From contig QAXH01006238.1 of NCBI GenBank assembly GCA_004335635.1, positions 63,965-127,964 on the forward strand: a stretch of DNA of 64,000 bases, in the 5' to 3' direction. The position numbers were made by a program, and so were the translations under genes. This document shows, one piece after another, positions 203 through 53,966 of the stretch. The first letter of the stretch is position 1; each line of letters opens with the position of its first letter. Under the pieces are notes generated by a model. The model was not told the origin of the DNA, did no database searches, and was given only the letters and a program-made list of their open reading frames with translations. The DNA is from Chloromonas sp. AAM2 (Eukaryota; Chlorophyta; Chlorophyceae; Chlamydomonadales; Chlamydomonadaceae).

Positions 203-3200
203 GTGGTTCGGGCAGACAATCCGGCCGTGGGCAGGCTGATGATTGTCAAGGCGTATCTCGGGCGCACCGCCGCAGACTCGCACAACCTGGCCACGAACAG
301 GTGAAGAGAACCAACAAGGCATTGGTGGCAGCCACAAGGCGTTGTATATGTTTACCCAAGGCCACCATGGCACAGGGGTTACACGGCAGTGGTGTGAAGC
401 TGAGCGCGGCACAGGGGTCGGCGAACTGTTGTGTGCATGGGTGGTGCAGAATGCACAGCCCACGGGATTTCAACGCAGAAAGGAACGCCCAGATGTGATC
501 TTGTGCAGCCCAGCGATGTTCTAAAATACAGAAAGGAATTCAAAGAACAGGTGAAAAGGAGTGGAGAGGGAAGAGAGCAGCAAAGTGGAGTGGTCGCATA
601 AGCAAGGCTCAAACCGCTTGTCGTCTTGTGATGCTGCAGACTGACGGGTGGCGGCCCCAAGCTGTTCTCATCAGAAGGGCAGCTGATGATGGCCTCTTGT
701 CTGGAGGGGCCGCGGGTCGAGCGCAGGCAGTACGGGGTCGGGTCGGGGCCGGTGGATGCGGTGTACCGCTGCAAACCCGGGGACACCAAGCAGCGAATCT
801 GGTGAGGCCTGTCCTTTGCAACTGTTTACACTTGTTTGGTGATGAACTGTTTGAGAAGTGTCCAGGGACAAGATACTAAAGCAGTAAGGAACTGCCTCGG
901 AGAGGCATTGCATGCGAGCCCTTGTGCAGGCCTGCATGCCAACTATATTTACCCAGCTTCCTTGTAAGGTGCACCAATGTCCTGCTATTATTGGACTTGT
1001 CTGGCCAGCATCTACGCCTGGTATTGCTTGCCTCCACTACCCCTGCCGCTAGGGTTCTGAGGATACGTGGAAGAGGCGTGTCTGTGCATAGAGTAGACAT
1101 AATGTTTAGGCCACTTTCTAACATATGCCAAGGTGTTCAACTGTGTTATCCGCCCGGTGCACCCTCCGCCCCGTTTAGGCGCCTCTTTGACCCTGCCGTG
1201 GAAATGCATGATCCGCCCTGCATATCCCTCTCCTGTGCAACCTCCACGGCGCACCCTGCTGTATTCCTGCCACTGAAGTGTGTTCTTTGCTCTGCATGCT
1301 CTCCCCTGTGCAGGTACTTGTTCGACCCTGCGCTCGTGCTGCCCGAATACCTAGTGGAGTTTCAGTACACTTTAGCACCCACAAGCGCCAAGCTGAGCCC
1401 GTCAGTGGGCAGCGCGGGGCTCATGGGCTCGCAGCTCAGCCAGGAGACAATGCAGGCGGGTGCTGAAGGGCTTGTTTGTCATCCTGCTTGCTTGCTATTA
1501 CAGCCACGTGTCACGAGCGGTATCAAAGCATCCCAAACAGTTGCAAGGCGTGGTAACAGGCGTGTGTCAGAAATACTATCAACGTATCAGGCACGTGTTC
1601 ACGGCTGGTGTTAAGTGATGCTGAGTGTACCGGCCCTTGGTAGCACATCACACTAATTCGGTGAAGCAGTGTCATGCAAGTGGCAAGGTGGCGCAAGTCA
1701 CGTCATAGGCAATGCTCTCTGGCCCTGTGTTATGCAAGTGGGCAGCCACGCCCCTGCCTTGGATCACCTCACTACCTCAACGCCCAATCTCACTGTCCTG
1801 GATGCTGGGTGCTCATCTGTGCAGGCCATTGTGAACGGTTTAGATCCGGAACTCAGGTAAGACAGCAGCCGGGAACACAATGCATGGCTTTTGTTGAGGC
1901 GACTGACTTGCATGGCTTCGAAGTAGCACAGGCTTCTGCACATGCTCGTTTACGTGGCTCTTGCGTTTGTTGTTGTCATAGTTTGCCTTCCCCCATTCTT
2001 CGGCTGAGTGCTCTCGCATGCTTGTCAATCTTGCACAGTCGTCCATCACACAGTCTTACCCATGCTTCCTTGCACCACCTCACCCACGCCTGCTTGCACC
2101 CGTCACCTCACCCACTCTTGCCGCACACACAGGCTGTTGGCTCGGCCTGTGATGAATAGGTCAGCGTTCCACTTCGACTCCTTGCTTGCTTGTCCACCAT
2201 GTACCTAACCCACCCTTGCTGCGCACACAGCATGCGTTCACAAAACACATTGCTCACTCACACACCACACACCCACCTCACCCATCCGTTCTGCCACCAT
2301 CCATCCCACACATGCTTCCTTCCACCATCTACCCACAATTCTCAGCTCCACGATCCACCTCTCCCGCCCCTGCTGCATGCGCAGGCCCTTGGCTCGACCG
2401 CTGATGAACTGGCTAGCGTTCCACTTTGACTCCAGCCTGCTGCACCAGCTGGAGTGCAAGGGCGAGGGCGAGGCCAGGGTCAGTGCCCTGCTAGAGGCCG
2501 CGCCCCAGGTACAGAGGGATTGAAGCACCTGTCTGTTTGCGGTGCGTGTTGAGACTTGATTGCTCCATCCTTAGGGGGAGGAAATCTTCTGATGCAAAAC
2601 GACGCAAACACACATGCACTCGCAGGTGGTGCCCAGAGCTAAGATTTACACCATGACAATGGATATGATCAACACACACGTGCAGGTGAGGCAACGGTGT
2701 GATGTGAAACGTGCAAACAAAGTTGGCTCAGTCAAAACGTTTAATAGATTTTGTGCGGGAGTAGTCTTTTTTTGAATGTGAGACATGCAAATAGACTCCG
2801 TTAGCTACCTATGAGTAGAGCGGACGATTCATACATCATCCCCACTCCCCTGAGACGCAGGCCTCATAGCAAGTGTACCAGTTGTGCTTATAACATCTGT
2901 ATATCTGTTTGTAATGTGGTGCAAAACGTGCAACAAATACGGGGTCGACAGACAGCGGTGACTGGGTCAACAGACGCACAGCACACGCACGTCACATCTG
3001 GTCATAGCTAACTACTCATTGCGGTCCTCAAGAAGCCTGCGTTGCCACTCCAGTTGGTTACATGTAAGACAGTGGTTACCGTAAGGCAATGGATTGCCAA
3101 GCCATCCAGGTGCTCTTATGCCATGTAAGGCAGGTGTCATGTGCTGCTGTGGCTGTGTGCGTTCATGCTGTGATTGGTGCGCAGGGTCATGCTGTGATTG

Positions 3201-6136
3201 GTGCGCAGGGTCATGCTGTGATTGGTGCGCAGGGTCATGCTGTGATTGGTGCGCAGGGTCATGCTGTGATTGGTGCGCAGGGTCATGCTGTGATTGGGGC
3301 GCAGGGTCATGCTGTGATTGGTGCGCAGGGTCGCCCCCTTGACAGCCTGAGCTACCTGAATCTGCACAACTGTGCACTGCGCAAGATCGAGGGGCTGTCA
3401 ACGGCCAAGGGACTCAAGGTACGGCAAGGCAGCTCACTTCAACCCGCTGCACCCGTGCCATCTAGTGCCCGGTACAGAACACAATAGATGTGACACTGCT
3501 AGATGTGTTTTATTCCACCCCGCTTAGCCTGAGTCGTTGCCATCGTTACTCGCTGACAACCTAAAGCTGACCGTCTAACGTACCCTTGTATATGATTCGT
3601 CTCAGGTGCTAACTGTCCTTGGTTGTTTACACACACTTTGCTATGTTTTTTCATAACTGTGAATGGTTTGCCGGAGGTGCTGGTAAGCCTACAAGTGGAA
3701 CATCATCATAACAAACACACTGGCGGTTTCTGTTCCCTTGCAGACGCTTGTTTTGAGCTTCAACGACATCACTCGCATTGAGGGGCTGTCGGAAATGGCA
3801 GGGCTCACTCATTTGGACATCGCACACAACCTAGTCAGAAAAGTGAGTTGGGGCAGTGGGGAAGGGTGGGGTCTTTAAACAAATTCAAATTACAAAAGAG
3901 TGCCATAGTTTGAGGTTGGAAAGAGGCAATAAAAATTTTATCCTGGGCACCAAGACAACTGTGCAACTGATTCAGTGAATTGTTTCCTTGTCTGCGTAGG
4001 GCTCTGTGTTGCTTGCGACCGAGTGCTTGTTCGTTTTCTGCTTGTGTGCCACAGGTTGATGGGCTCAAGGGTCTCACGTCCCTGCTGCACCTGGATATGT
4101 CGTACAATCAGGTAGGCTGGCCGGCTTGTTACATTGGAACAACAACACCCTTGGGGCGAACACAAGGCCAAGTCACTGGCAGACAAGCTCACATTCAAGG
4201 CATGTTTATTCGTGGGTAGCAGCCATCAACCTTCAATCACAGTCTGATGCAATTGGAGCACGACTCTCTCCACTACCAGTTGCTTGATTTGCGTTTGCAC
4301 TGGGTTAGGGTAAGATCAGCATTGAAGTTAGGGTGGGAGTTAGGGTTACCGCCAATGGCCTCTGGTACACCCCGCAGCGCTTTTCTTGTTGTTGTCAGAT
4401 GGCCTTCAGTCCGGGGAAGACTGCTCAGCAAGGGGCAAGGGGCAAGGGACAGATCCATTCCAATGGTCATCCACTGGTCGCCACTGACTGCCCATGTCTG
4501 ACCCCTGTCTTACCCTTGTGTCGCTCAGGTTGTAAAGTTGGAGGAGATCTACGGTCTAAAGAAGTACGTCGGTCAGCTGACCTACCTCGACCTGAGCGGC
4601 AACGGCCTCTGCGAGGACAAGTCATACCGGCCCACCATGCTGCGGAAGATGACGAGCCTATCGGTGTTCGACGGGCGGCGGATCAGTCCGAGCGATGCGG
4701 CCCTGTTTGGCGGCGATAACGCGGGGGCGCTTACCATGGCTATGGTGCTTGAGCATGGCAGCGCAGGCCATAGGTTCGGGGTGGCAGGTAAGGGGGCGTT
4801 CACGCGTGGCAAATTTGGATCCAAATTTGGATTATGATTTGGGTTCCCAATAAAGGGGTGGGGGGGGTTATTTGGATTTTGATGGGGGTAGGGCCCACAC
4901 CAAAAACATGTCCGTTTGACTTGAAACTTTGACCACGTGCCTAAAATTGACCAAGAAGGTGCCCCCCACTCTCAGAATTGCTGCATACGGCCTACTACAC
5001 ACATGGTTACGCACACTCACACCAAATTTACCACTACCGCTGCCCAGGCTGCTGCTCAGGCTTTTGCTAAGGCTACTGACAGAAGAGATAGGTCTGTTGG
5101 CGACCCAGCATGGCATTTCATCATATGAGCAGACAGCAAACGCTAGATCAGTGCAATTGAGAAGCTGACCATCAACTGTCCATGCATGCTTGAAATCTGC
5201 AACCACTTCGCCAGCCGTGCACACAGGTTCCATGTACATGCATCCCCAGAGCAGTTCAACAGCCCAACACTGATTTACGTGAACATGCCAGATTACCATC
5301 CCAAATTTGCATGTCCAAATTTGGGTGCGACTCTACACTGTGACCGCGGGCAAATGTGGGTCCACATTTGGGCCTCATCTGCCGCCTTTCAATCCAAATT
5401 ATTATCCAAGTTTGGATCCAAATTATCTGCCCAGATTTACATGTGAACGCACCCTAAGTCGTTGTTGTGTACATGGCCTTCAATCCAGCGAGACGCTCAC
5501 TGTGTGATTGTTGTTGTTTTTGTGGTCGTAATAGACCTTTGTAGGCGCTTACTAGATCCTTAGTACACTCGGGGTGGCAGGGAAGGTGGTCAAGACAAGC
5601 GGGACACCGGCTGACGTGCACTGGGTTGTCCTGGTGTTGCCTAATCTGTTGTCATAGCAGACCTTCTTTGAAGACCTTTTTTCAAGACCTTTGCTTTTAG
5701 CAGATCTTGGTAGATTTTCAGCTCTAGGGCTAGTTCAGCATGCAAGGTACATCCTTTGCAACAACCAACTGAGTAGATATTGCTCGTGGCGCAGTATCTA
5801 AACCTGCTGGATGATAATCAGGCACATTGTTATAGGCGCGCCGTCTCTGACTTAAGGTTATACAACGGAGCACCTGCAGTCCATGTGCACACACCCTTAC
5901 AACAATCAGGCATCTTTGTTTCTAAACCAAAGCGCTTGCTCTCGGTGTGATACTGGTGGCGTGTGCCCCAGGTTCCTTGTCAGTGGCAGCTGTGAGCTCG
6001 GGAAACAGCCTACGCACACTGGACACATGGCCGGTCACCTCCTCACCAGCACCAGCGCCCTATCACATCACCATAACATCGTCATGTGCCAGAAGTGTAC
6101 ATATGATGATGATATGAACGCACAGACACACGCACG

Positions 6137-6172
<36 letters not shown>

Positions 6173-9100
6173 CTGATGATAATGATAATGATAATGATAA
6201 TACACACTGGTCGTTTGCATGCAGACGCCGGCCTGTCCTCCAAGGGCCTGTCCCCGGGTCTTCAGCCGGCGCACATTCAGGAGCTGGTGGTCGAGCGCCG
6301 TCACATACGCAGACTGCAGGTCGGAGCACAGATAAGAAATCAATAATGAGATACCGACAAATGTATGAATCAACAATTAAAGATAATCAGAACACACTAG
6401 TTGATTGGAAATTATAGAAAAGTGCTCGCAGCAAAACTGCTACACACACGCCTGCACACACACATCCCGCAGTAAGTTGAAAAAGCACAGCTACCATTCA
6501 AGCGGCAGCCGTTTATCACATGCAACCTCAGTGCACACACACACATGCCCCACAACACACACACACGCACACACACACACACACACACACGTGTGCACAC
6601 ACATATGCACTATGATCCACCGCATTGGTAGGTCAGGTCGGCCATGTGCCCCTCATGCAGTGCTTCAAGCGATTGCGCTGCCTCCTGGCCTTTCCCACAG
6701 GACCTGACTGGTCCCGTGAACCGTACATACCCTGCCCCACCGCCTGAAAACACATGCACATGAAAGTGGTTACAGGTCAAAGGGTCTGAACCAATGCATG
6801 CAATGTTCAAACGCAGAACCTGACCGGCCTTGTGAACCTGCGCCGCGCGTCGTTTGCCGACAACCAGATCAGCCACATCGAGGGTCTGGAGGCATGCACT
6901 GCGCTAGAGGAGCTGTGCATGGAGGACAACAGGATAGGGACCATTGAGGGGCTCACGGGACTCACGAGGTGGGCTGCATGGGGAACACAAGCTAGTGGAT
7001 ATCACATGCCACATAGATCTTAAACAGAATGCCACAAAGCAGCACAGTAGGGGCCATATCACTGGGAAACAGATCCTACATATCCCTGGGAAACATACTA
7101 GCAGCAAGATGCTTTGGCAGCATGGGAGTTGTTAGTTTTTCCAAACATAGAACATGAGGGATCTATCAGTTGCTGACTGCGGCCCGTCCTACCAAGCAGC
7201 AAGACGCATTGGCAGTGACCAGCAAAAGAGGACTGCTCGCCAGCAAAAGAGGACTGCTCGCTGCAGCTTTTGTGCCACCCATCTCTGCTTGCTCTTCCTC
7301 TGCGGGTGAGCATGCATCTGGACCATGCTTACTCAACAACACGTTGAAAACTGTGTTCGTTTCCTCAGGCTGAAGAAGCTCCAGCTGGGCAAAAACCGTC
7401 TGGGTGGCCTCGAGCTTCTGAGCGTGGTGACCAACCTGACTCAGCTTAGTGTCGAGGACAATGAGCTGAGCAGCCTGGCGGGGCTGGAGCCGCTGGTGTG
7501 CCTCATGGAGCTGTATGCAGGTAGGCAGGCACAGCAAGACTGACACACGGCTTAAGGTGATTCAAAAAGAGGGGCTTCCAGGGTACTGGTAGTCTATTTC
7601 TGCTGTACGGCGGTGGTTCACAGCCCTCTTGCTCAGGGTCGATGCGGTACCCCGCCCATCCTTCCCGCCATGTCCTGTCAGCTTGTGCGACTCAGATTTC
7701 CAATGGATAAAGTAAACGAATTGTATATCCCTGAAGACTGTGTGGCTATGCTGTTCCAGGCAACAACCGCATCCATGAGTTGCGTGAGGTGCAGCGCCTG
7801 CGGGAACTGCCCAAGATCATCATACTGGACCTCAGCGGGAACCCATGCACAGCCAGCGCTGCGGACAACTACCGGCTCTACGTCATATTCAACGTGCGAA
7901 AACTCAAGGTAAGCAAGCAATGGAATGCCGATGTCTGCCAGGCGATGTCTGGCATTGGAAGTGTTTGTCCTCTGATGGTACTCCGTATGCTGATTAAGCT
8001 AAAGCAAACACAGCAAACGAAGCTACTGTCGGTACTCTGTATGCTGGTTAAGCTAACGAAGCAACACAGTCACATGTGTGATTGGGCAGGGTCAGACAGT
8101 GCTAGCCATTTGAACGTGTTTGCCCACAGTTCAACATCTCAAACAAACTGCACGATTCACACGCAAAACGAATGCAAGATACATGCCTGGTGTGACGGAG
8201 GTGCGACATCCTGCAGAGAGGCCTTCAATGGTATTCTGCATGCTGATGAGCCAACATGCTTCAGCAGATTTGCATCGTGCACAGCTTGTGCGGCGCACAA
8301 GCAGTTCTGATGCAGGCCAAAACGCATTGCATGTACTGCTTTAAGTGCCCTTGTTGTGACGTAACGCACGCTGATGTTTGCCCAGGTGCTTGACGGCACG
8401 CCCATAGACGCTGCTGAGCAGGCCGCTGCCAAGTCCAAGTACAGCGGGAGACTCACGTTAGAATTCCTAGAGGAGAAGCTCGGCCACCGCATGTTTGATC
8501 GCATACGCGATATGGACGTGTCTGGCGTAAAAGTGAGTTCTCCTGTTTTTCTTCTTTGGAAGGGGAAAGGGAAAGCTAAACACATGCGTCTGCAAGGGAA
8601 GGGTAAACACAAGAAAGCAAGTAAGCATGGTGCGATTAAGCGACTCGTGACAATAGGGAGGGGGCTGTTTAAGGCGGGATTGGTCAGTACACCATAATGC
8701 ATCCAAAAGACTTGTGACAACAGAGAGGGGGGCCTGGTCCAGGGCAGGAATGAGTTGTGCATCCCTGTCTGGGTTCATGCACCTTGCCTATTGATTGTTC
8801 TGTTCATCAAACTTCTTGGGGATGTAGATGTTCAGATCGATGGCCTTCTACTCGGGGGACCGTTTAGTGATCTATCCGTGGATATTCTCCCCTGCTACCA
8901 GTGACCTTTCTTGGCTTAACGATTGTCAGGCGCGTAATTCTTGGGGAGATACTGTGTCTAGCTGCAGTACCGTGGGTTGAACCATGAAAAGCCATGTAAT
9001 GATGATGATGATCCATTCTACGTCAGTCAGCTGTTTGTTGGAATAGCGTGTTGCAGGTTGGTGTGGCGTGACTTGTGTTGTGTTCAGGTGCGTGATGTGG

Positions 9101-12100
9101 GCGGAGTGTTCCTGCGGGATGAGCTGGAGAGCCTTCAGGAGCTAAACCTAGATGGGAACATGCTGGTCGAGGTGTCAGGTAGGCTCGGGCAAGGTGTCAG
9201 GTAGGCTTGGGCAAGGTGTCAGGTAGGCTCGGGCAAGGTGTCAGGTAGGCTCGGGCAAGGTGTCAGGTAGGCTCGGGTAAGGTGTCAGGTAGGCTCGGGC
9301 AAGGTGTCAGGTAGGCTCGAGTAAGGTGTCAGGTAGGCTCGGGCAAGGTGTCAGGTAGGCTCGGGCAAGGTGTCAGGTAGGCTCGGGTAAGGTGTCAGGT
9401 AGGCTGCGGTCAGCACACTCAACCCTCTGTTGGGTGATGTATGCAGTGCACAGGCAGAACAGCACCGCACGTGCAACAATCGCCAAGCTTGTAGATGCTT
9501 GGCTGCCGGAGACCAGCTGAGGCTCGCATTGCAGCGTGTTTGTGCATGATGGTTGCATGTGTTAGTTGCAAAACCAGGTGCAGTGAAGGAGCGGCTGACA
9601 GTGACTTCTTGCTGCCTGTCCCGTCACAGGTCTGGCCCTGCTGCGTCAACTGGTGGTGCTCAAGCTTAACAGCAACCGGCTGGGCGAGGAGTGCACCTTC
9701 AACCCACGCCGCATGCTGGACAAGAACCCGGAACTGTAAGTCGATCAATGCATGGCGGATGTGGCTGAATGCTGGGGGCACCTGAAATCCAGCAGCATGG
9801 TCAAACCCTGGCCACTGTGGAATGCAATAGGAGGCGTGCAACGGTGTCAACTGCTCTTCTGCTTCTCTGAAGCAAGCACTGGCTAGCACAGGCATTCAGT
9901 GAAGCACGCTTGCTGTGGATGTGTTTGTCGTGCTTTTATGTACAAATCAGCCCCTGGCTGAAGGTCGAGCGTGGCAACATATCAGCAGGACCGTCCCACA
10001 CTGCACTTACACCAGCATTTATGCTTGCCCTGCCTTCAAGGGATGGCACTGGCATTGGCAAGGGCAAATAATCACCGGCGTTTGACCAATCAGTGCTTGT
10101 TATCCGCATGCTTGTGCAGTTACAAGGCATGGAGTGATCCCACACGCCAACAGAGGCTGCAGCCCGGGCAGGCCACTGCAACCCTGCAGATTGACTTGTT
10201 CCCATGCATACAGGTGACCACCAATCCTTGCTACGGCATGACGTCCATGGTTGTTTCCTGCATAAGCAGTGGTACAGTGGGAGTAGTGCAGGGGAGCTTG
10301 TTTGGTCAGTACGTATTCTCGCACAGGGAGCAGCATATGTCTGGCCCCTGCACACTGCAACCAAGCCATCGCATTCTCACGCGATCATCAAAATGTTCAA
10401 GTCTGGGTCTCCAGCTGAGCACTAGGGCACGACCAATACTTAGGCAAGGAGCATCATACGCAGCCCGACCTCCACACAAGTCACTGATAGGTAGCTGCAT
10501 AGGTAGGCTGAAAGGGACAGGCTCACATAAATGCAGACCAGCCATAAAAAGGTCGCAGCTATGGTTAGCTAGGCTTTGGCTCTGCCTGCCTCACACACAT
10601 TTCCGTGACCTCGCCCACCTTTCAGGCTCTTCAGTTGGGCAGCAATCAGATCGCCAGCATCTCTTCCCTCCAGCTGGGCTGCCTCACATCACTGCGCACG
10701 CTCTTCCTCAACAATAACGACATCACGCGCATAGACGGGCTCGAGGGACTCACCAACCTACAGGTGCGCTGGGAGGCATGAGTGCAGGGCACTTGCTTAA
10801 GATTTGTTATGTAATCATTATGAGCAGAGCACTGCAATACCACAGCGGTACCAGATCATGTACACAAACATGGATGGATGGATGCACCATGTTAACAGCA
10901 GTACAGGGCCGTAACAGAAGAACTATACCTTAAATGAATTATTGTATTACTATATAATATTATTATTATATTGCATTCAAGGTTTAGTCTTGTGTCATAC
11001 CGGCAAAACTGATCCCCTATGAGCATGAAGGCCCACAACTTGCTGGGGTTGCTCTATCATCTGTTCCTCGGCTGAGGCCAGCTGCAAATGGCCTCCAGGC
11101 AAGGGTTGCAGGTGCTGCATGCTCTTGGTCCGAACATACTGTGTGCGCTGTCCTGCGTAGGAGCTTATCTTGGATCGCAATCGCATCCGCTACATCGACC
11201 CTGAGGCGTTTGCTGGCATGGGGCGGCTAAGGGAGCTGCGGCTGGAGGACAACGGTCTGAGGTCCCTGGCTAACCTACAGCACCTCACCATGCTGCAGGT
11301 ACGAAAAAAGAAAACTGAGGCCGTACAACAAATCTGATCAGATACAGGAGGGCAGCTCTGTCAGCTTGTGCTTTAAACACCATGTGGCATAATCAGAATC
11401 ACCACGGGAGACATGAATTCCGCAGTTATGGACTTTGTGGACGATGGTACCATCAGCACAAGGCATATATTGCAAGGCAATGCACAGTCCTGGCTGTCTT
11501 AGGCAAGCAGGTGCAATGACCTGCTCCCACGTCCGTTGTTTTCAACGTTGGTTTTGCTGTTTTTGCCTGCAGTCTCTTCACCTGAGCAACAACCGCATTA
11601 GTGAGCCTCTGGAGCTGGACAGGCTGTCAGGTGGGCGGTGACACATTCTCCATCTTTGGCCACGCCCCTCTCTCTCATTTGGGCAGCCTACGTTGTGCAT
11701 GATAAGTAGACATGACATCGGACCTGGCTACCTGTAATACTTTTACGGTGCATTGAATGTCAAGTTTTACCAGTTCGTGGAGGCTTGCTGTCACTAGCCG
11801 CCACGGTATGGGATGTGTTTGTTGTCAAACGCTGTCGATCACACCGCCTCAACCTCATCCCGCTGGCTCAGGCCTGACCACGCTTGTGGAGGTTAGCCTG
11901 GTCAACAATCCCATCACTCGCAAGCAGGGCTACCGGGCGCTGCTCATATGCAAGTGCCCCAAACTGTACACAGCAGATGGCCTGGTGAGTGCTTTCACCA
12001 CCGTCTTACCAGCAGGAAGCTCACAGGTTCGGTATACTGTTACTTTGCAACAGTTGGAATGCCAAGTTATCTGCTTGTTCCGGGTGGCTAGCTGAGGCAT

Positions 12101-22300: not shown

Positions 22301-25300
22301 ACCATATTGCAATCAAATCGGTCACCTGATTTCAACTTGGGGCACCTATGTGTGTGTCGTATTCCCAGGGGAGCGCTTTTCACGCTGAAGGATGGAACAG
22401 TCAGATCTCGAAAGCGTACAGCAAACAGACATGAAGCTTGTATCCCTGGAAAAGGAAGCACTGGCGCTGCCTGGCGTACTGTCTGTAGGACGCTGGCGGT
22501 GGCACGGTCACCAACCGCATGGAGCGCGACCGCATGCGCATGGCCATTCTGGAGGAGGCCAGCGTGGTGTGCTCCACCCTCTCCTTTGCGGGCTCTTCCA
22601 TCTTCCACCGCCTCAGCAGGAAGTGGGTGGGAGCCTCCGAACTGCAAACCGTGCCATCTGATGAGTTGGGGTTGAGAGCCCAGCAGCATGTGTGTCAGCA
22701 GACAAGTTGCAGTACTAGAAGCAACGAATGAATGGACGCCTGCGATTGGCGGGCATGCCTCAAAGTTAACTTGGTGAATAGGCTGCTTCTGATTTCTTGT
22801 GCTTCCAAGTTGGGCTAAGTTGGAACACACCACCCTTGTGTGCTTTTTTTGCGTATCGACAAGTCAAGGTGAAAATAAGACAAGAGCAACCCAGTCACAG
22901 ATCTGCTCATAGCACCGTGACAGCAATGGCACCCGGGGGATGACGCCGCCCGGCGGCAGAAATATGAAGCAACCAGTCAGCAGTACTGGTACTGCACAGT
23001 GCATCACTATCAACTAGTACGCGTATTAGCGGTACTGCGTCACTGCCAAGTCTTGCAAGTACTGCACGACAGTCCCGCTTATACGTACACTTTCCTGGTG
23101 TGTGCAGGTTTGATGTGGTTGTGATAGACGAGGCTGCACAGGCAGTGGAGCCATCTACACTTGTGCCTCTCATCATGCAAGGCTGTAAACAGGTACAGTG
23201 GTCACGTGCAGCCTTGTCGTAAACCTTCATGCTGACTTGGCAATGCCACTAGTTCCGGTGCTCTCCTGTGCTCAGCGCTCTCGGCAGCTTGTTTGCACCA
23301 TGCAGCGCGAACATTACTTGCCTTGTCTTGTCCAGCCGTACCTGGTAGGACAGCTGGCCTGCTGTGTTCGATCTGCCAGCGTTGTGTGCAAACCTCATTG
23401 CAGAAGTCTTTGGCTTGGTTCGTTTGTTTGCTGTTTTTTTTGTTTCTCTGTTTATCTTTTCTTGTTTTTATGCGTGTGCCTTGATCTGTATGTAAGTCCG
23501 ATGCTCAGAACCGGCAAAATGTGCGCGCAGCAAAGCCCCCTTGTCCCTCTTCTCCTTTTTCCTGCCTTCCTTCCTTCGTTCCCTTCTTTCATATTTCTCA
23601 ATACTTTTTCAATAACTCGTCTCCTTTGTTCATTTGTTACATCTGTCCTTGAACTCCAGACCTGGTATTCGAGCCCCACTCCATGCCTGTTGCATGTGTT
23701 GTGTTGTGATCTGTGTTTCTGCGTGTTTCTCATTCGCCTAGACCTTCAGCCCAAGCGCTAGTCGGTATCCAACCCATCGTTGCATGGGTTGTGTTTCATC
23801 TCAGGTGTACCTGGTGGGCGACCCCGTGCAGCTGCCCGCCACCGTCATCTCCACGCGCGCCCTGGAGCACAACTACAACTGCTCGCTGTTCAAGCGCTTG
23901 CAGGTGCGCTGTGTGTCATGTTGCATGGGGAACGCTTGCAGGTGCGCTGTGTGTCATGTTGCATGGGGAACGCTTGCAGGTGCGCTGTGTGTCATGTTGC
24001 ATGGGGAACGCTTGCAGGTGCGCTGTGTGTCATGTTGCATTGGAAACGCTTCATCACGCTGTAGGCTGAAACAGTCATCAGCGGTGGCAGGTGCACGCAT
24101 CCATTCTAGAGCAAACCTGAGCCTGTTGTGTGTGGCTTTTTGTATGGCGAGCGCTTTATCACGCCAATCAGAGTTCAAAATCGCATAGCAAACAAGCCGG
24201 GGTTCCAGGCCCTCTGAAGCAAGCTGTGTGACCCACCCTAGTGTACAAGCATAACAGGTCAAGGGAATAGCAGGTCACGACAGGCATAACCGCAGCCGCA
24301 AGCAGGGCCTCACAGCAGGGCACCCTGGTTATCAGTACGGATTGCATTACCTAACTAATCAACAGCACGGCTGCCGGACAGGGCTTGTGTGAGGCCACGT
24401 GCTGGGCACTGCAGTCGAGCACTTGCCGTGACGCATGGGCACGGTGGTCACCGCTGCCACGCACGTCAAACATGTCACTGAAAACTCATAGATGACGGAC
24501 TGCCAGGGAAGTCCAAAAGAAGTTGTTGGCTGCGCTGCAGCACTGCAGGCGCACCCGCTACCTTCTCATTGAAAAATGGCGAAGTTTGCGAATGATTTCG
24601 AATCTGTTTCTGGCCACTACTGCGATCACATGTCTGATGGTAGTCATTTGTGTCGTGGGCACCGCAAGCCACTTGATATGATAACTCAGGTCAAATTTGT
24701 GAATGCCATGTAGCAATGATCATAATTCACGTCGTGCTCTGGTTGCTTGTGTGCGCGCCACAGGGTGGCGGGTACCCCATCAAGATGTTGGACACCCAGT
24801 ACCGTATGAACCCCGCCATATCCATGTTCCCTTCCAAGCAGTTCTATAACGGACACCTGCTGGACGGAGAGGTAACTGAACAACTGACCAACAAACAAAA
24901 AAACTGAACAACTGACTAAGTAACCAACTGGATCAAAACCAACCGAAATGCCCAGCAATTGCCTTCTCATCATCATTACACGGCTTTTATGCTTACTGTT
25001 GGCATCTTGCAGTACTCCAGCTTAGGCGCTCAGCAGCCTCCTACATCAACCCCCTAAGCAAAGCAGGAGCACGATTCCCCCAGACATTCAAGCATGCAAT
25101 GCTCTTCTTGACCAAATCCGATCCAACATGCAATGCCTCTGTTGCCACAGTAATGCCACATGTCAAAGAGGTCGTGATGTGCCCTGCTGCCACAGAGTGT
25201 AATATCGGAAACCACCAGGCCCTGGCACGCATTCAAGTGCTTCGGGCCGCTGGCCTTCTTTGACGTGTCAGGAAAGGTGAGCCAGGGCCTGGAAAAACGC

Positions 25301-28300: not shown

Positions 28301-31117
28301 CTCGTGCCAAATCTCCTGTTGTAAGGCTCATCAGGAGAAACGTGCCTGCCTTTTTCCACTCTCAAACCGTGCGTGGCCAGTCTAAAGTTGCTGAGGCTAT
28401 TCCGGGCCTTGGCACTCATGGTATTAGCCAGAGACAGGTGACCAGGAAGACTTTTGAAGCTTTTAATTTCCTCATATGAGGTAGCACTTGACTTGAAAGT
28501 TGCTTTCTTCCTGTTGTCAGTACCGGTCATCGTGAACAGGCCAAACATAGCTCAAGTAAGCATCTGTCCACTTAGAAATCACCACACTTTCAGAAACTGG
28601 GCTAGGAATGAGCCGTTGCACAACTTTGGATTCAACACCTGTAGCCCGGAGAGCCTTGTCAACCTGTGCACACCAGCAGCCACCAAAGGACGAGCTTCAG
28701 TACTATAAACCACAGAGTTCGGCACCCTATTCTTTCAACAAATATGGGGCTGGAGTGGGTCGGGGTAAATGACATATTTTAAGAACAAATGCATACTCGG
28801 TTTGGCCTGGAGACACGACCATTAGCATTCAGTAGCCACGGGCGGTGCATGCAGGGGCAGGTCTATGCATTGTTCATGGACATGCATGCAGGAACGAGCT
28901 CATGCCTGCACTGACGGGTAATGCACTGGCCCTGCTGAAATCATGCATGCAAACCGAGTTTTGGCAGTGGCAGGCCCATGCATTCAAATACGGGCCCATC
29001 ATGCAGTGACAGGCCCATGCATTGAAATACGGGCCCAGCATGCAGTGGCAGGCCCATGCATGTATCTTTGCATTCACTCACGGGCCATGCATGCACCGAG
29101 CCACCCCTACAGATGTTGGCCTGTCATGCATGCAAGCATGGGCTACACCAAGGCAGGCCTCAGCATGCAGGCCACGAACAATGCATGCGGCAGCAAGCCC
29201 GCGCACAGGCCCATGCATTCAGATGCAGACCCGTGCATGTCAGCATGCCACCCTGTAGCGACGCATTGGCCAGCATTGTCACGGGCTCTGTTCGTCTTAT
29301 TGTCACGGGTTTAACACGGGCTATTGCACTAGAGCATGCATGCAAGAACACACACATGCGCCCATCACAATCACTGGCGGGCCCATGCATGCAGATCAAC
29401 AACAATGCATGCAGCAGCAGGTACATGCACAAGCCCATGCACAAGCCCAACATGCATGTCAGCATAGCACTCAGTATCGTCCCATTGGCCAGCATTTGCC
29501 ACCTTTTTCTGTCCTATTTTGAATCGCCATGGGCGAAGCACGGGACTACTGCACTAGTAAAACTGCATCAGAATTGCACACTTGCTGCATGAAAGGGGTA
29601 TCCGTGGCATGTTTTGCTGGCCATGCCTTGAATGCCTTCCAAAGGAGGTGGCTTCATGAGCGGCCACGCTGTGGCGCCAGAGTAAAAATGTCACAACTGT
29701 TTTCTGTCTTTATCAGACCTGGAACAACGTGGACGTTATTCATAGTGTGGTAACTTCAACCATTGTTGTTGTCAAGGATTGCTGAGGAATCGTGTTGTTG
29801 AGGAACTGAGCTGACGCAGAAGGATGCCAGCTTTTTCACTCACGCTTGTGCACGTTTCATTCACGGTTGTGCACTTTGCATGTGCAGCTGTTTCTTTCGA
29901 CCCAAGGCACCTTTTGCTGATTGGATGGCGGACGCTACTGCCGGCAAGGTCCAGACAGTGACGCCCACTCCCGCGGAACTGGCAGTGTTGGATAAGGTGG
30001 GCGTGGGTGTGATCTGTTGATGCATGTGCTTCTATCACTGTACGTTGGCAGCGCTTTTTCGCTGCTGGGTAAGGCAATCAAGTCTCACAGCGCATAGCAA
30101 GCAGACAGGGTTTTTAAGCCCTCTGTAGCAAGCTCTTGCGTGCAGCCTTAATGACAAAGCATGCCACCGCAAGTAAGTGGGTTGATGTGTGTGGATGTGT
30201 GGGTTGTGTGGCACAGTGCGCTGTGTGTGCCTTCCAAAAGGGGGTGGTGAGCGCGAACACTGAAGTTTTCAAGAAATGCCAAAAACAATGCCCCTTGTGC
30301 GTCCGGTGACAGCGTCCCTGATGCGACCAAATATGTGTGAATAGAGCGGATACCGCAGGGTAAGGGATGCCAGAGCAAAGCCCATCACTGCAAGGCCCTC
30401 ACCTCATCCGTGTATGTGTGTAATATGATGTGTATGTGTGCCTGCAGGCCCGCCAGGTCCTGGCCAGTTCGGGGGCTGCGGAGGACGCACCAGGCGATGT
30501 CGCGAGCTCCGAGGCACTTGCGCAAGAATTGCACGAAGAGGATTTAGGAGCAGAGGATGAGGTGAGGGCCTTGCAGTGATGGGCTTTGCTCTGGCACCCC
30601 TTAGCCTGCGGTATCCGCTCTATTCACACATATTTGGTCGCATCAGGGAAGCCGTCACCGGACACATAAGGGGATGGGCCACGCTCTGACCTACCCTGAG
30701 CAAGAACGAAAACGAGCGCAGCCCTGAGTCGATGGATACCTATAACAGCACTGGGTTGCTGCGCATTTGCAGCGCCTTTTGAATGAGTCATTCATATATC
30801 ATGCAGCGCAGCGAACGAACGAACGAAGGAATCACAGGCCAAAGGAAGGCAGTCCACACCACGAGCCGCCTAGGCTAACGTCAAAGACCAGAGACAATGT
30901 CATCTGACTGTGTTCACATGCATATGTTGCGAACTAATATCACTCACGTGCAAAGCGGTTTCTTGGGCTGCAGGGCGACGTGGCCGCTGTGCAGAAGAAA
31001 CGAGAGGATGCGAAGGCGGCGGCGGCGGCTGCGGAGCCCACACCGGCCGGCGGCAGCAGACGCAAGGCCGGGGCTCCCGCGGCAAATGAGCCAGGCAGCA
31101 AGAGGCAACGCAAGTGA
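15596..31117 (+). CDS. SEN1: SEN1/MAA3 (senataxin)-type SF1B helicase
   Basis: RNA/DNA helicase family that resolves R-loops and aids transcription termination in the nucleus. Exons: 15596-15736, 15916-16035, 16239-16337, 16730-16878, 17286-17438, 17792-17870, 18334-18477, 18962-19077, 19665-19785, 21526-21608, 22133-22229, 22489-22622, 23108-23192, 23805-23903, 24764-24871, 25196-25276, 25989-26074, 26452-26509, 26903-27027, 27457-27621, 29888-29996, 30448-30561, 30974-31117 (TGA). Their lengths sum to 870 codons with all phases matching. Helicase motifs in order: GPPGTGKT (Walker A, about residue 260), [23 protein letters not shown] (motif II), [37 protein letters not shown]. The tail after 29996 is acidic, then Ala/Arg/Lys-rich, ending SKRQRK, a possible nuclear signal. 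The length is close to plant MAA3. The first coding exon upstream of 15596 is unresolved; an ATG frame opens at 15146 and a donor lies at 15413. Confidence 0.92.
16351..16384. repeat. (CA)n microsatellite
   Basis: A run of about 17 CA units in a SEN1 intron, just after the donor at 16338. Confidence 0.95.
18570..18945. repeat. CAGGCAGACAGG-type degenerate satellite
   Basis: Irregular tetranucleotide-based repeats of CAGG, CAGA and AAGC fill most of the SEN1 intron 18478-18961. They create long spurious Cys/Leu-rich open frames on the minus strand. Confidence 0.85.
19179..19303. repeat. Perfect inverted repeat (hairpin) in a SEN1 intron
   Basis: Left arm 19179-19212 (GGGGGTCAACTACTGTTAGA then GGGTCATGGAC) pairs with right arm 19270-19303. 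The arms are about 31-34 bases, essentially perfect, with a spacer of about 57 bases. It lies within the intron 19078-19664. Confidence 0.9.
21237..21307. repeat. (ATCC)n microsatellite
   Basis: About 70 bases of CATC repeats, with CATTCATC interruptions twice, in the 1.74-kb SEN1 intron 19786-21525. Confidence 0.95.
23895..24050 (+). repeat. 38-bp minisatellite carrying four tandem splice donors
   Basis: The SEN1 exon ends CGCTTGCAG at 23903. That end, with the donor GTGCGC and the next bases through TGCATGGGGAA, is repeated at 38-base spacing. Candidate donors lie at 23904, 23942, 23980 and 24018. The spacing is not a multiple of three. Confidence 0.92.
25594..25638 (+). repeat. Dispersed repeat family A, diverged copy 3
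   Basis: CGCCTTGAGTCTGGGGAGGA then CTGCTCACGCCGGCAAGGG matches the family core. It lies in a SEN1 intron, about 250 bases before a family B copy. Confidence 0.6.
25882..25943 (+). repeat. Dispersed repeat family B, copy 2
   Basis: CATCAGGGAAGCCGCC through CCCTGACCTACCCTGAGCA and AGAGAGAAG. It lies in the SEN1 intron before the exon at 25989. Confidence 0.75.
27700..27779 (+). repeat. Dispersed repeat family A, copy 4
   Basis: (TTG)n, TTTACATGGCCTTCAGTCCG, GGGAGGACTGCTCAGC, then a GGGGCAAGGGGGAAGGGG tail. This is the best match to the inverted copy at 32697-32766; about 65 bases are shared. Confidence 0.85.
28820..29470. repeat. TGCATGCA-rich degenerate satellite
   Basis: GGCCCATGCAT and CATGCATGCA blocks recur. 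At 28965-29060 a unit of about 37 bases (GCAGTGGCAGGCCCATGCAT, then TCAAATACGGGCCCA) repeats two to three times. The palindromic TGCATGCA core occurs many times. Confidence 0.8.
30291..30674. repeat. 119-bp inverted repeats flanking a SEN1 exon
   Basis: Left arm 30291-30409 and right arm 30556-30674 are reverse complements at roughly 95 percent identity by eye. The spacer of about 146 bases contains most of the SEN1 exon 30448-30561. The right arm starts inside that exon and includes its GAG|GTGAGG donor. The outer end of each arm is family B sequence. Confidence 0.92.
30638..30712 (+). repeat. Dispersed repeat family B, copy 3
   Basis: CATCAGGGAAGCCGTCACCG through CTGACCTACCCTGAGCAAGA. Its 5' half is the outer part of the right arm of the inverted repeat around the SEN1 exon. 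Confidence 0.75.
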
Positions 31118-35445: not shown

Positions 35446-38400
35446 CTACTCAGCATCCCTATCCACATCCCCACCAAGGTGCACAGCTTCTAAGGCAACT
35501 CCAACTGATTCGACGTCAGATGCCAGACCAGCAACTGCTGCCGGTGCTAGGTCAGCGCTCACAGGTGGCAGGGGCAGCAGCATTGCGCCTCCGCTCACAA
35601 TCGCACGCACATCTGCGCTGCCGGTTGCCTGAAGAGCAACGCCCAGCAAATCACTGCCAAGGTCGGCAGCAGCCTTGCCATCCGCATCAATGGCGCTTGC
35701 AGCTGCTAGCTGCTGAGAAGCTGCTGGGTCCGAGCTGTCTAGGTCCAAGTTATCCGGTACTTGGAAGACCAAGCCGCCCGGTGCATCAAGGTTCAAATTG
35801 TCAGGCACGTGAAGGGTAGAGCTGTCGTTAGATGCCTCACCCAGGCCGTCAGGTGCAGCAGAAAACACCTGTTCAGTCAGGCCCAGCGCGTCAGCTGAAG
35901 CCCTGGTAGCCAGAGGCTGTGATGTTGCGCCGCTGCTGAGGCCGGTTCCCTCCCGCTCCCTGTCGCGCGCTTTGTCCTTGTCGCGGTGCTTTGCGCTGCC
36001 GCCGCGGTGCCCGCGGGTGTCTGAGCGGATGGGCGTCTTGGATGGCGACACACGCACAGGCAGGGAGCCTGCAGGCATAGACACACATAAACAGAAAGAT
36101 AGGCATCGCACCCAGCTTAGTCTGCACTGGTTGTACACTGGGTTTGGCCTGGCCACTGGGTAGGTCAGTAGCATTGATGAAGATCCAGCCGCCACTTGTC
36201 ACTACCAGCACCATCAGCTGCTAGACATGCTGAATTGCACGGCTGAGTCGGACAAACTGTGCAGCTTACCCAGCAGGGCTCCAGAGCAGTTGAGAGCTGC
36301 CAGAGCTCCCTCCGCGCTCACAAACTCGACAAATGCAATGCGTGTGTTGTGAGTGGCGTCCCCAAGCAGTCGCAGTTTGGCCACAGGACCTGCATACAAA
36401 CATGCACACATTGACCTGGATCAGTGCATCAGCAATAACGAGCATTGGAGAGCATGACAACACCAGCTTGTGCCGTGCCAGTCAGCTGCACTGCATGCAG
36501 CCAGGCCGTGCGCTTGTCATTCAGGCATGATCAGGAGAGCACGATAACACTTGCTGTTGCATCCCATACACCGGCAAAACGCTTTGAGCAAGTCGGTTGA
36601 CGCTGCAGGCTGGGAGCGTTTCCCCTTTCAGACAGCCCATGCTGATGTGCGTATCCGGATGTATCTGCGTACCACATCAGCTGCGAGCACTTGCTCATGA
36701 CTGAAGTAGGGGCTGCCAAGAAGGCTGCAGGCCATACAACCTGTATGTAAATCCACGCACCGCAAAGTCCTTCAAAGAAAGCACTCAAGTCCATCTTCTC
36801 CACGCGCTTGTCAATGCTCGCCACGTAAACAGTGCGAGAGCATCGTACCAACTGCATGGGAAGACAGACAGGCAAGTCAGCCACACTAATGACTTCAGAA
36901 GCATCTGGTGTTAACTAATCAGCCTGCTCACTTCAGTATGTCATGGCTCTAACAGTGTGACATGCACATAAGTCTGCCAAGTGACAACTCAATCCGTGGC
37001 CAGTCCTGCACTCACCTCGTCATGCGAACGGGGCATTAAATCCTTGCTGACTGGCACAATGGCTGTCTTGCTGGGTTGCACACGCAGTGGCCACCCGCCA
37101 AGGATGGTGCCACTCATGGACAATGCCTGCATGCACCAAACTTACATGCCAGAGTGTGACGTGTTGTGCACATGTGCTGGCGAAGCAATGAACAACATGC
37201 TGACCATGCCCAGACGTGCTCCCATGCGCCCGGCATAGAACCAGACATACTGGCATTTGCGGGAGGTGCTTGCACACCTTCTGCGCTGAAGCGATGTCTG
37301 AAAACTCCAAAAATGCGAAGCGCATGGCTGAGTTGGGATCCGCACATATCCGGCAGTCGACTACTGGGCCGCAGGCGCTGAAGAAGTTGGCGAGCTGCTC
37401 CTCTGACACCTGCAAACAGAGTATGGTCATGTGAAGCATTCGTGTCAATGTGACATGCAATGTCAGGCATGATGACGCATAGCTCATGCGGAGCTGAACG
37501 TTGAAAGCGCTTGGCATGCCCAGAGTGCTCACCATCACATCGATGTAGCTGACGTAGATTGTCCGTTTCACATTCTCCTCCATGCCACGCTGTACTTTTT
37601 TCTTGCCTGAATCCGGCTGCTGGAGCTGCTGTTGCTGCTGCTGCTGGTGCTGCCCTGCCTGGTTGGACGACTGGCCAAATTGTCCCCGAGGTTGCAGGAC
37701 AGACTGCATTTTGGGCTGGCTGCCTGGATGCATTGCCATAGGCATGAATCCAGGCTGTACCAGGCTACTGCCAGTTGCGTGCATCACAACCTGGCTACCT
37801 GGAAGGTGCTGGGCCGCTGGCAAACTGCTTCGTGAGTGTGTTGACATGCGGGCCATGCTCATGTGGTCAGGTTGGGCATTGGCCTGCATGCACACGTCAA
37901 ATTGTAGGCAATCAGCAGAAATGATCTGGGCCCTGCTCACTAACAACGCACTGCTGCGCTCTGCCCGCACCATCATGTTCATCGGTACCACAGTTTGCAT
38001 CATATTCATCGGCTGGGGGATGTAATACATCTCGTTGCTGCCTGGATGCACTGCCAACATCATCTGAGACTGCGCTGGTTGTGCCGATGGTCCGGCCGCC
38101 ATCATTCGTGGCGCGTTGACGCGTGCTCCGTAATGATCCACCATGTCTGCACAATGGCATCAAGAGAGGAACGATCGAGCAGGAGGCTGTGATTACGGCC
38201 CAAAAACCTCTGTGTGATTACAGGGCTTAGGATTGATGCAAGGCATGGTTGACATTGGCAAAGGCCCTTGCATCCTGACCCACGGCTTTCATCGAATAAA
38301 CCATCGCCTAGTTACTCGGGGAGGGGTTTTTCAGATGAGCTCAGATCAACAGCTGCGTGCCTTGCCTCACGTACCTGGCAAACCATAGGTGCGAAGCATC

Positions 38401-42846: not shown

Positions 42847-42920
42847 GCAAAGCCGTCACAGGTGCCACCGGACATGCAATGGGATGGACGATGCATCAAC
42901 CTGCCCAAAGCAGGTGTTGA
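42847..42920 (+). repeat. Dispersed repeat family B, diverged copy 6
   Basis: CAGCAAAGCCGTCACAGG, CACCGGACATGCAATGGGAT, then CAACCTGCCCAAAGCAGG. It keeps the order of the family at lower identity. Confidence 0.5.
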
Positions 42921-47141: not shown

Positions 47142-47250
47142 CTACCAACCGGAGCACAAGCATCCGGTAGCTGGCTGAGCGTGAGCATCGCGTCCACCTC
47201 CTTCTTGAGCGTGAGCATCGCGTCCACGGTTCTTGGCCGTGTCGCTGTAT
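47142..47250. repeat. Two-copy 30-bp duplication
   Basis: On the minus strand the stretch GTGGACGCGATGCTCACGCT is present twice, 30 bases apart (47185-47230). It gives the peptide repeat VDAMLTLKKEVDAMLTLSQL in an open frame that may be, but cannot be shown to be, an upstream exon of the PARP gene. Confidence 0.6.
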
Positions 47251-47449
47251 GAGGAAACCTGGGCAGGCCAGGAGCACTTGTTCCTCCCGTGACACGCCCA
47301 AGGACCGCGCCTTGCTGGGGAGGAGGACGCAATGCTGGGCACAACCCCGGGTGCCCGTGCTCTGGTCGGCATGTCGTCAGTGTCAGTGCCGGAGCAAACG
47401 GCACACACGAGTAGCATGTAGTAGCAGATACACCTCTACTGCTCATCAC

Positions 47450-51400: not shown

Positions 51401-53966
51401 ACGTCATGTTGACAAAGCACTGAAATCCTGCATAGAAACAAAACTCACGGGGAAGGCGAAGCACAGCACGGCGATTGCCACAAAGGTGGGCTGCACCGAC
51501 ATTGACCCGCCCAGAGCCCCTAGCCCAAGTGACGGAGGGGAGGCCGCCAGCACCACACCCAGCGTTATGAGTGCTGCCCCGGCTAACTGGGAGCGAGTGA
51601 ACCTGCAGCAGGCGGCATGGAGTCAAGCAGGAGCCAAGCAATAACCCTATATAGTGAGGTGTAAGATAGGCATAGGCTGATAGAGGGCGCTTGGTTGGTT
51701 GATAGGAAGGGATAGAGGCCAAAACTGGGGTCTCCTGTGTGAAAAGAAGTCTCCTCCAATTGTTTGTCCAGTCAGGTTTGCCGCTCGCTCCAAAGGAGTT
51801 CTAGCGATGTAAGGATACCATTGGATGCGCCTTGACGAGATCCGTCCCTCTTTGTCCAGTTCGGGTATGTTATTGGGCAGCTGGGGGCTCTGTAAGGTTC
51901 TGGCGGGGCGGTGCCCGCGACAACAGCGACGGCAGTGCGGCAGCTGTGTTTCGAGTGCTTCAGCTGTGCGGACCTGGGCGCGAGTTCTCTAGTCGTTTGT
52001 CGCAGCGTTTTACCCGATATCAGGGATTCAGTGCAAGGTATTGCCATTGTCAGTCGGTTGCTGTCAGTTGCAGCCGTTATATGGCAACTTGCAGGCCAGC
52101 GACTGCATGTCACCTGATCAGAATGTGGAAGTTAGCTGAGGCGTTGTGATTCCCTCATTAAGAGCTGTCGAATGGACCCCTCATTGACCCCATTAGGACC
52201 TGCTTAGGGAGCGGGAGCGGGAGCGGGGGTCCCCCAGCCGGAGGCTTGAAAGAAAAAGCCGGCGTGTTCAGCCTTCTGTTTTATACTACCCTCCTGAGCC
52301 AAGCCTTTGTATGCAATCCTTAAAATCAAGGATAGATAAGCAGCAACATCAAGCGGCAGGAGGTTGGCCAATCAACCCCGAACATTGGGTAAACTTGACC
52401 CCCAAGAGACCAGGTGAAATTCGACCGAGCTTACACGCCTAGCGGAATCGGTGAAATTTGCTTGTCTAGTTCAACGTGCATTGAACAGACTGAACATGCA
52501 GCATCTACAGAGCCGAAGTGCTTCCAGGCCAACATGTTTGCAAGCTCCTGACCACATGCCACACATCATTGACCAAACCTACTGTGAAAGAACCCTTTCT
52601 GTGCTCCTCATTGACCTAACCCATACTGTGACTGACCCTTACCGAAGCAACCCGTATATATTTCCACATCGCATTGACCCAGCTCGCATTGTGGCCAATC
52701 CAATACATGCCCTGTGCGTATGCTGTTCATGGCGTGGCCAGGCTCACCCACCGTGTGCGCATGAATATAGCGGCAAACAGCAGGTTCCAGCACAGGTAGG
52801 ACTGATTGAGGATTGGGAGCAAGGGCCCTGCAACGCACATAGGAACGGAGTTGTGGCATGTCTGGAGCACACCCACATGGCAGTGTCGACCTTTACTCTG
52901 GCACGTGTTACATGTCACAAACGTTATCTGTTCAGCGCGTGAATGGTTTGTTGATGTACAATTCAATACCGTGCATCAGTACCGTGAACTATCATGACCA
53001 TGTATTTAGCACTTCTCTGTGAAATGCTGGAAACTCACTACAACGGAAAACTTAATAAGAATCCACCCAAAACCTGAACAGGAAATGTCTTGCCCCTGCT
53101 AAAAAGTCCTGCTTGGACTGAAAGCCATGCAACCACAACAGCGAAACAGCTGCCTAGTACTTCTGCTACCGTTCGCCCCCCTCCCTCCCTTTCATTGCTC
53201 ACCGGGTAGGTTTGACGCGCTGATCATGAACAGCAGCTGCGCCACCGCCTCACACGCGCCTATGGCCCACAGCGGCCGCTTGTCGATGGCAAGCATGGCG
53301 TCTGTCACCTTGCCGGCCCGGTACCTCAGCGCTAGAGTGCTGAAGTAAATCAGCAAATAACCTACGGCGCAAGCAACAGCACACAGCTGGCAAGTGTGAG
53401 GGATAGCTAGTGCCTATTACGAGAACTGAGAGCACATCTTGAAACAATAGCAAGCGTGTGAGCGCTCTCTGTGTGCACCTGGGTCGATGGATTTGCAGCC
53501 AGGTCAGATTCCGGCGGGGCCCATTGAGTGGAGTGGAGTGGTTTGACGCTGCTTAACATATAGTGCACCTGGGTTGACCGGGACAACGCTGATTTGCTCG
53601 GTTGTGTCGATTAGGTTAGCCTGATCTGTCCGATGCCCTGATGGCCGCAACGCCCAACATGCAGTTCGCCATACCTATACTTTGGAACTGCGCTAGGCAG
53701 AACATGCAGTTCGCCATACCTATACTTTGGAACTGCGCTAGGAAGAACACGCAGTTAGCCATACCTATGTTTTGGAACTGCGCTAGGAAGAACAAGTAGT
53801 TGGCCATACCTATATTCTGGAACTGTGCTAGGAAGAACACGCAGTTGGCCATACCTATGTTTTGGAACTGCGCTAGGAAGAACACGTAGTTGGCCATGGG
53901 CACCAGGGCCACCCGGTACAGCACCCGGTTGGCTACCCCCAACAGCAGCACCAGGAGTATGAAGGC
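48420..53966 (-). CDS. CLT: CRT-like (CLT) plastid thiol transporter, N-terminus unresolved
   Basis: Member of the chloroquine-resistance-transporter-like family; the plant CLTs move glutathione and gamma-glutamylcysteine across the plastid envelope. Exons in coding order: 53966-53855, 53361-53203, 52827-52752, 51602-51449, 50666-50610, 50345-50319 (27-base micro-exon), 50121-49986, 49836-49764, 49415-49325, 48563-48420 (TGA). They sum to 343 codons in continuous phase. Family landmarks: GVANRVLYRVALVPM, YLLIYFSTLALRYR, LPGPLLPILNQSYL, LDIFMINSFGSLFQ, LPSYLAEGAKCF, GAPLLVVSYVAANLAFNI, ITLPLPGL. About nine to ten hydrophobic segments are visible. The segment expected between FAFP and DIVFRKEKE is shorter than in relatives, so a small exon between 51449 and 50666 may be missed. 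The transit-peptide exon upstream of 53966 was not found. The first visible exon ends in an array of tandem donors. Confidence 0.9.
49129..49221. repeat. Family C hairpin
   Basis: GCGGTACCGTGGGTTGAACC, ATGATAAGC at 49129-49165 is followed, after a GATGAT-rich loop, by its reverse complement at 49185-49221. The left arm matches the family C copies at 8958 and 60591. It lies in the CLT intron between 49324 and 48564. Confidence 0.85.
49843..49878. repeat. (GAGT/GAGC)n tract at a CLT acceptor
   Basis: GAGTGAGCGAGCGAGTGAGT repeats lie immediately upstream, in the minus sense, of the CLT exon starting at 49836. They read CTCACTCACT..CAG and form the pyrimidine-rich tract of its acceptor. Confidence 0.85.
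53095..53141 (-). repeat. Dispersed repeat family A, diverged copy 6 (inverted)
   Basis: The reverse complement reads TGTTGTGGTTGCATGGCTTT, CAGTCCAAGCAGGACTTTTT, AGCAGG. It keeps the family order and the CAGTCC/GGACT hairpin. It lies in a CLT intron. Confidence 0.5.
53640..53899 (-). repeat. 45-bp minisatellite carrying five tandem splice donors
   Basis: The end of the CLT exon (encoding MANYVFFLAQFQNIG and its donor ATAG|GTATGG) is repeated at 45-base spacing. Donors in coding order are at 53854, 53809, 53764, 53719 and 53674. Every unit stays open and adds 15 hydrophobic residues; copies vary (NYV/NCV/NYL/NCM). The repeat unit is exon sequence plus donor. Confidence 0.93.

Follow-up and report, generated by a model that had tools for sequence, protein, structure and literature searches.

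Four minisatellites cross exon-intron borders in the stretch of Chloromonas sp. AAM2 DNA analysed here (the window; 64,000 nucleotides), and every one of their units carries a consensus-like splice site, which raises the question of whether this green alga possesses a process that duplicates splice junctions or whether tandem repeats arise without regard to junctions and are tolerated where they happen to cross one. A sequence-only reading had placed seven acceptors at 3184-3328, eleven donors at 9179-9399, four donors at 23904-24018, and five donors at 53854-53674 (minus strand) in three unrelated genes. TRF recovered all four arrays (A1 to A4, Table 1) at these positions, and the site counts proved correct; the genes encode a leucine-rich repeat (LRR) protein (A1 and A2), a SEN1-like helicase (A3), and a CRT-like transporter (A4). 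The repeat unit does not begin or finish at the exon border, as that reading had it, since the exon edge lies 4 (A1), 9 (A2), 9 (A3), and 43 (A4) bases within the array. All four consist of head-to-tail units in the 10-100 bp range, of high identity and at a single locus, and are thus minisatellites by definition. Within any one array the copies score equally or nearly equally as splice sites (6.6-7.1 for the seven A1 acceptors, 6.6 at each of the eleven A2 donors, 7.6 at each of the four A3 donors, and 3.0 at each of the five A4 donors). Units differ among the arrays, and a whole-genome DNA search, by a method that passes over simple repeats and words of very high frequency, found each array with its flanks at one place only. 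Thus, the units are local and no spreading element is seen, as had been claimed; nor do the arrays resemble introner-like elements, which have many dispersed copies. These observations support A1 to A4 as independent events, and junctions have been duplicated repeatedly in this genome.

Table 1. Junction arrays and adjoining exons in the window and in the two sampled stretches beyond it. The slash in splice-site motifs stands at the exon border.
Feature	Position	Strand	Description
Array A1	3163..3332	+	24-bp unit TCATGCTGTGATTGGTGCGCAGGG x 7.1, 98% (TRF); seven acceptors CAG/GG
LRR-gene exon start	3329..3418	+	GRPLDSLSYLNLHNC...; last of seven A1 acceptors; homologue-indicated
LRR-gene exon before A1	2626..2685	+	VVPRAKIYTMTMDMINTHVQ; gene-finder score low, homologues support
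Array A2	9170..9405	+	22-bp unit AGGTGTCAGGTAGGCTCGGGCA x 10.7, 95% (TRF); eleven donors CAG/GTAGGC
LRR-gene exon, end = first A2 donor	9088..9178	+	next exon 9630-9735
Array A3	23895..24051	+	38-bp unit x 4.1, 98% (TRF); four donors CAG/GTGCGC
SEN1-like helicase exon, end = first A3 donor	23805..23903	+	next exon 24764-24871
Array A4	53656..53897	-	45-bp unit x 5.4, 91% (TRF); five donors TAG/GTATGG
CRT-like transporter exon, end = first A4 donor	53855..53966	-	next exon 53203-53361
L024 array	L024:5869-6055		47 bp x 4; acceptor region, diaminopimelate decarboxylase gene
L015 array	L015:2353-2421		34 bp x 2; exon end plus GTGC, pyruvate decarboxylase gene

Exons were predicted with a two-strand exon-chain gene finder, self-trained on the window plus 24 stretches, each of 10 kb, 22 of which held sequence (264,490 non-N bases in total); row L001, which is part of the window, and rows L011 and L020, which are all N, were left out before counting. 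The splice sites that it started from had been picked by eye in the window, some of them from A1 to A4 themselves. The gene finder returned 389 exons, one per 680 bp, with 125 of them low-scoring and with predicted median exon and intron lengths of 109 and 365 bp, and it learned CAG/GTGAG-like donors and TGCAG/G acceptors.

For each array, the exon-proximal site was taken and homologues were compared for whether they run on through the junction. The A1/A2 gene product contains leucine-rich repeats (Pfam), and its two junctions were checked by BLAST with the best targets, at most 12, per query. When the last A1 acceptor is used, five of the seven junction-crossing homologues among the matches listed are gap-free (P0055, P0063, P0080, P0069, and P0065), with P0063 and P0080 identical across this part, while P0057 lacks one residue and P0058 has an extra six. 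If the inner copies are included in the query, the alignment begins at the last copy in nearly all matches listed, among which P0059 alone extends, weakly, into the insert. On raw sequence the gene finder selected the first A1 acceptor (3185), as the 24-bp unit maintains an open frame, which warns annotators that a gene finder may settle on the wrong copy. At A2, A3, and A4 it terminated the exon at the first donor. With the first A2 donor, 11 of the 12 homologues listed are gap-free at the junction and P0071 has six residues fewer; some of the homologues at this junction are SDS22-like LRR proteins. The A3 gene product has AAA_11 and AAA_12 helicase domains (Pfam), and its top PDB match, yeast SEN1 (5mzn), runs through the first-donor junction, a gap of one residue following a few positions later (best 1 of 30 matches). 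The A4 product is CRT-like (PF08627, Pfam) and 45-47% identical to named relatives from Dunaliella, Chlamydomonas, Gonium, and Scenedesmus; the sequence closest to it is a metagenome protein with 66% identity across 47% of the query. These relatives mark the host as a chlorophyte, and none of the proteins seen came from its own species. In an alignment of 14 of the 54 proteins found for A4, no insert at the first-donor junction occurs in any of the 13 homologues that cover the place.

Two more junction arrays lie beyond the window, within 200 kb of the same genome (L024 and L015, Table 1), the second L015 donor being weaker (CAA/GTGCGA). The exon-proximal site agrees with homologues at L024 (best 2 of 8 matches) and at L015 (best 1 of 22 matches). 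Homologues thereby match the exon-proximal site in six of six cases, with the extra copies intronic in all six, and a few single homologues have an indel at A1 or A2. These alignments indicate that the exon-proximal site, i.e., the first donor or the last acceptor, would give the ancestral protein in every one of the six. We infer that junction arrays are not rare in this genome and perhaps number a few hundred in all.

Other repeats and genes were seen in the same sequence. About sixteen 26-bp units with CAG/GTACAG-like donors lie immediately upstream of a ClpB-like exon (L012:2165-2579) and may form a further donor array, which was left out of the confirmed cases because a stretch of N interrupts it. 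L003:847-924 was considered as an acceptor array and dropped, the likely acceptor lying about 50 bp downstream, and L012:7157-7384, a Q-rich repeat within coding sequence, scored as a junction match in some collapsed runs only (see below). The diaminopimelate decarboxylase gene has repeats at two of its borders, the 47-bp acceptor array and a 12-bp GT-rich repeat that begins at a donor (L024:6631-6694); the latter is microsatellite-like and was included only in the 94-array test described below. Two arrays about 80 bp apart share the same 20-bp unit CAGCAGTGGTGTGACCTCGT at 98-100% (L021:8174-8251 and 8334-8403). Within the window, a 39-bp unit of GGCCCATGCATTCAAATACG type is repeated 2.5 times in a predicted intron (28964-29061), with related pieces nearby, predicted minus-strand exons at 35446-38146 resemble, by eye, the RRM motifs and Q-rich region of an RNA-binding protein, and the contig ends within a degenerate 13/39-bp tandem repeat (63785-64000) that probably halted assembly.

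The inner splice sites differ in their predicted effect on the reading frame. All six inner A1 acceptors leave the frame open and add eight residues per copy, and all four inner A4 donors leave it open and add 15, the A4 unit being nearly all exon plus GT and in frame. In contrast, all ten inner A2 donors yield a stop, as do two of the three inner A3 donors (the last one is open and adds 38 residues); the first two inner L024 acceptors lead to a stop and the third, 46 bp upstream, to a frame shift, and a frame shift also follows from the single inner L015 donor. Thus, the suggestion that such arrays serve exon growth or isoform diversity suits at most A1 and A4. One could nevertheless regard the arrays as used ladders of splice sites that generate length isoforms, as in human IFI6. 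This would agree with the open inner frames at A1 and A4, with the equal or nearly equal scores throughout each array, and with the human precedent as described in PMC4526556; we judge it improbable, given the frame-breaking inner sites at A2, L024, L015, and two-thirds of A3, the 13 A4 homologues without an insert, the A1 junction free of indels in five of seven homologues (P0058 does have six extra residues), and the changes between A4 copies, of which five are synonymous and five not (counted by eye), with no clear sign of constraint. Equal-strength, in-frame sites at multiple-of-three spacing suggest a bolder version, in which A1 and A4 would be ladders tunable by copy number that add 8n or 15n residues at one fixed position in the LRR protein and in the transporter, repeat number would set the isoform mix, and many such ladders could exist genome-wide; that, too, we hold to be quite doubtful. 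Were the inner copies used, variation in repeat number would be tied directly to protein length.

Whether arrays fall on junctions more often than by chance, a comparison of the kind that the sequence-only reading had proposed, was assessed by collapsing the arrays to one copy, re-predicting exons, and setting the overlap against that of random intronic intervals of equal length. The main test comprised 94 TRF arrays (period at least 12, copies at least 1.8), 7-8 of which lie on junctions versus 4.9 expected. Among strict arrays (at least 3 copies, period at least 18), four of the eight in the window contain a predicted junction versus 0.44-0.47 expected (P = 5e-4 to 6e-4, post hoc), while beyond the window the count is one of 15 versus 0.97-0.99 expected; for all arrays beyond the window it is 3-4 of 65 versus 3.7. 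Arrays with at least 3 copies, window included, lie on junctions in 6 of 32 cases versus 1.7 expected (P = 0.005), and arrays of 1.8-2.5 copies display no junction bias (1-2 of 42 versus 2.0 expected). An earlier pooled test used 40 TRF arrays (period at least 15, copies at least 2.5), of which 20 formed the strict subset; window included, 5-6 of these 20 lie on junctions versus 1.1-1.8 expected, with P = 0.0004-0.027 under the intronic null and 0.0025-0.063 for any place, and beyond the window 1-2 of 13 versus 0.7-1.3 expected. The pooled excess stems from the window, which was itself reported for its four arrays, and the window P values are therefore not an independent test. A gene-model-free test of the units drew on 76 of the 94 arrays (period 14-100): among the 28 beyond the window with at least 2.5 copies, none has a donor scoring at least 6 (1.26 expected), and two have an acceptor scoring at least 6.5 (1.13 expected). 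The comparison hence yields a post hoc excess within the window and none in the sample beyond it. Of the claim that a recurrent process duplicates junctions, the repeated, independent duplication stands and extends to L024 and L015, but a junction-centred habit of the genome is not supported, the rate in the sample beyond the window being the expected one.

A genome-wide test counted three motif copies spaced 8-38 bp. The exact donor CAGGTGAG gave 7851 singles, 31 triple matches, and 20 arrays, and its permuted control GCAGTGAG gave 4564, 15, and 8 (complete lists, arrays counted by hand); the backward controls gave 1707 singles and 2 matches for CAGGTGAG and 1691 singles and 8 matches for GCAGTGAG. 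Per thousand singles, the triple matches amount to 3.95 for the donor versus 3.29 for GCAGTGAG, 1.17 for backward CAGGTGAG, and 4.73 for backward GCAGTGAG; pooling the three controls gives 3.14 (P = 0.24). Stated as counts, there are 31 donor matches versus 24.7 expected from the pooled controls (P = 0.24) and 20 arrays versus 13.8 expected (P = 0.24), where about 4 would be expected were donors avoided; the exact test's point estimates lie at 1.3-1.5 and so lean above 1. Thus, arrays do occur on donors, and their rate there cannot be clearly told from a blind one. Of the unmasked CAGGTGAG sites in the sample, 17 of 25 coincide with predicted donors, as do 23 of 96 unmasked TTGCAGG sites with predicted acceptors. 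For the looser donor CAGGTRNG, 52 distinct arrays were counted by hand among the matches listed on contigs C1-C1151 (46, 23, and 28 for the three controls) versus 45 expected, the individual controls giving expectations of 33, 38, and 63. Raw CAGGTRNG matches across the whole genome number 412 versus 273 expected (213, 253, and 352 by control), in counts that enter one long array many times; about 309 of the 412 are on contigs outside those in the matches listed. The whole match counts for donor and three controls are 412, 257, 128, and 213, and backwards 203, 137, 65, and 36. The raw excess leans against a blind reading, and arrays may have a modest preference for donors.

On a rival reading, tandem duplication would be seeded or promoted by splice-site sequences themselves (e.g., through R-loops, stalling, or CAG/GT-like direct repeats), so that arrays prefer borders. 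The four of eight strict window arrays on junctions, the P values of 0.0004-0.027 for the pooled strict set, and the 412 raw CAGGTRNG triplets versus 273 all lean this way, but no excess appears beyond the window, whether by gene models or by unit scores, the exact CAGGTGAG test gives no significant one, and two-copy arrays, which are closest to the initiating event, are without junction bias; we therefore regard targeting of junctions as unlikely. PMC3887541 reports that two green algae have more repeats towards the ends of introns, which a blind process alone would not predict. The arrays, or the number of their copies, could also be products of mis-assembly. With 2324 contigs the assembly is fragmented, the window terminates within a repeat at a contig end, and some stretches contain N; set against this, distinct variants are interspersed among the copies of A2, A4, and L024, and arrays recur with unrelated units, which makes an artefact very improbable indeed.

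We consider it likely that the junction arrays were born as minisatellites without regard to junctions and are tolerated where the outer site remains functional. A short tandem duplication would by chance have spanned an exon-intron border, copying the splice signal with a few bases of exon and part of the intron; short direct repeats probably mediated this first duplication, through slippage or repair. The 5-bp direct repeat CGCTT flanks A3 at both ends of its first unit, a classic pattern of minisatellite birth for which a Haber-Louis type model would be the frame. Subsequent expansion in copy number would have multiplied units on the intron side, while the first donor or last acceptor, being outermost, would keep giving the ancestral protein, so that the copies would mostly be tolerated as intron. 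With a predicted exon every ~680 bp and many arrays, junction-spanning arrays would be expected by numbers alone. We infer the slippage origin, the neutrality, and the preferential use of the outer site. The cases illustrate how, in genomes rich in introns, splice signals are multiplied by one apparently blind process, the birth of minisatellites, and the arrays offer natural test pieces for the choice among identical competing splice sites 22-45 bp apart.

NAGNAG and GYNGYN tandem splice sites consist of two sites a few bases apart, and A1 to A4, with 4-11 sites spaced 22-45 bp, are not of this kind. Tandem duplications that bear AGGT can create introns, with cases in potato RdRp, in 24-bp exonic repeats of fission yeast, and in Drosophila (PMC4974935, PMC2891723). 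As in that model, splice signals were copied here by tandem duplication, and the A2 unit includes AGGT; the duplication at A1 to A4 does not, however, furnish the two splice sites that a new intron needs, the intron's other end lies far outside each array, and thus no new intron is seen to have been made. According to PMC3887541, the density of tandem repeats rises near intron-exon junctions, above all in Chlamydomonas reinhardtii and Volvox carteri. These belong to the same broad algal group, and their repeats are likewise intronic and located towards intron ends; what that study reports on this point is positional density rather than units that contain and multiply a splice site. In our searches of the open-licence literature, we found no green-algal arrays described as multiplying the splice site.

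Two of the closest parallels are human. Arrays like these were unknown to the sequence-only reading, yet the literature has had a minisatellite with multiple donors since 1995 and minisatellites at exon-intron boundaries in human paralogues since 2009. Human genes in segmental duplications carry internal tandem repeats (~30 bp x 4), some at exon-intron boundaries and with altered splicing in some, as PMC2812944 describes them. The algal arrays resemble these as minisatellites at exon-intron borders; the human repeats, in that account, vary between recent paralogues and have partial transcript support, whereas the algal ones are known from the genome sequence alone. The minisatellite of human IFI6, with multiple splice donors, is the 1995 case (cited in PMC4526556 and PMC2572611), and its repeat units serve as donors and give three mRNA species, as related in PMC4526556. 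Like IFI6, the donor arrays of this alga are tandem arrays whose units carry predicted splice donors; unlike IFI6, where units are used as donors, the algal inner sites are predicted only, and most of those in A2 and A3 are frame-breaking. Arrays of this kind are already known, and the algal cases are additional members.
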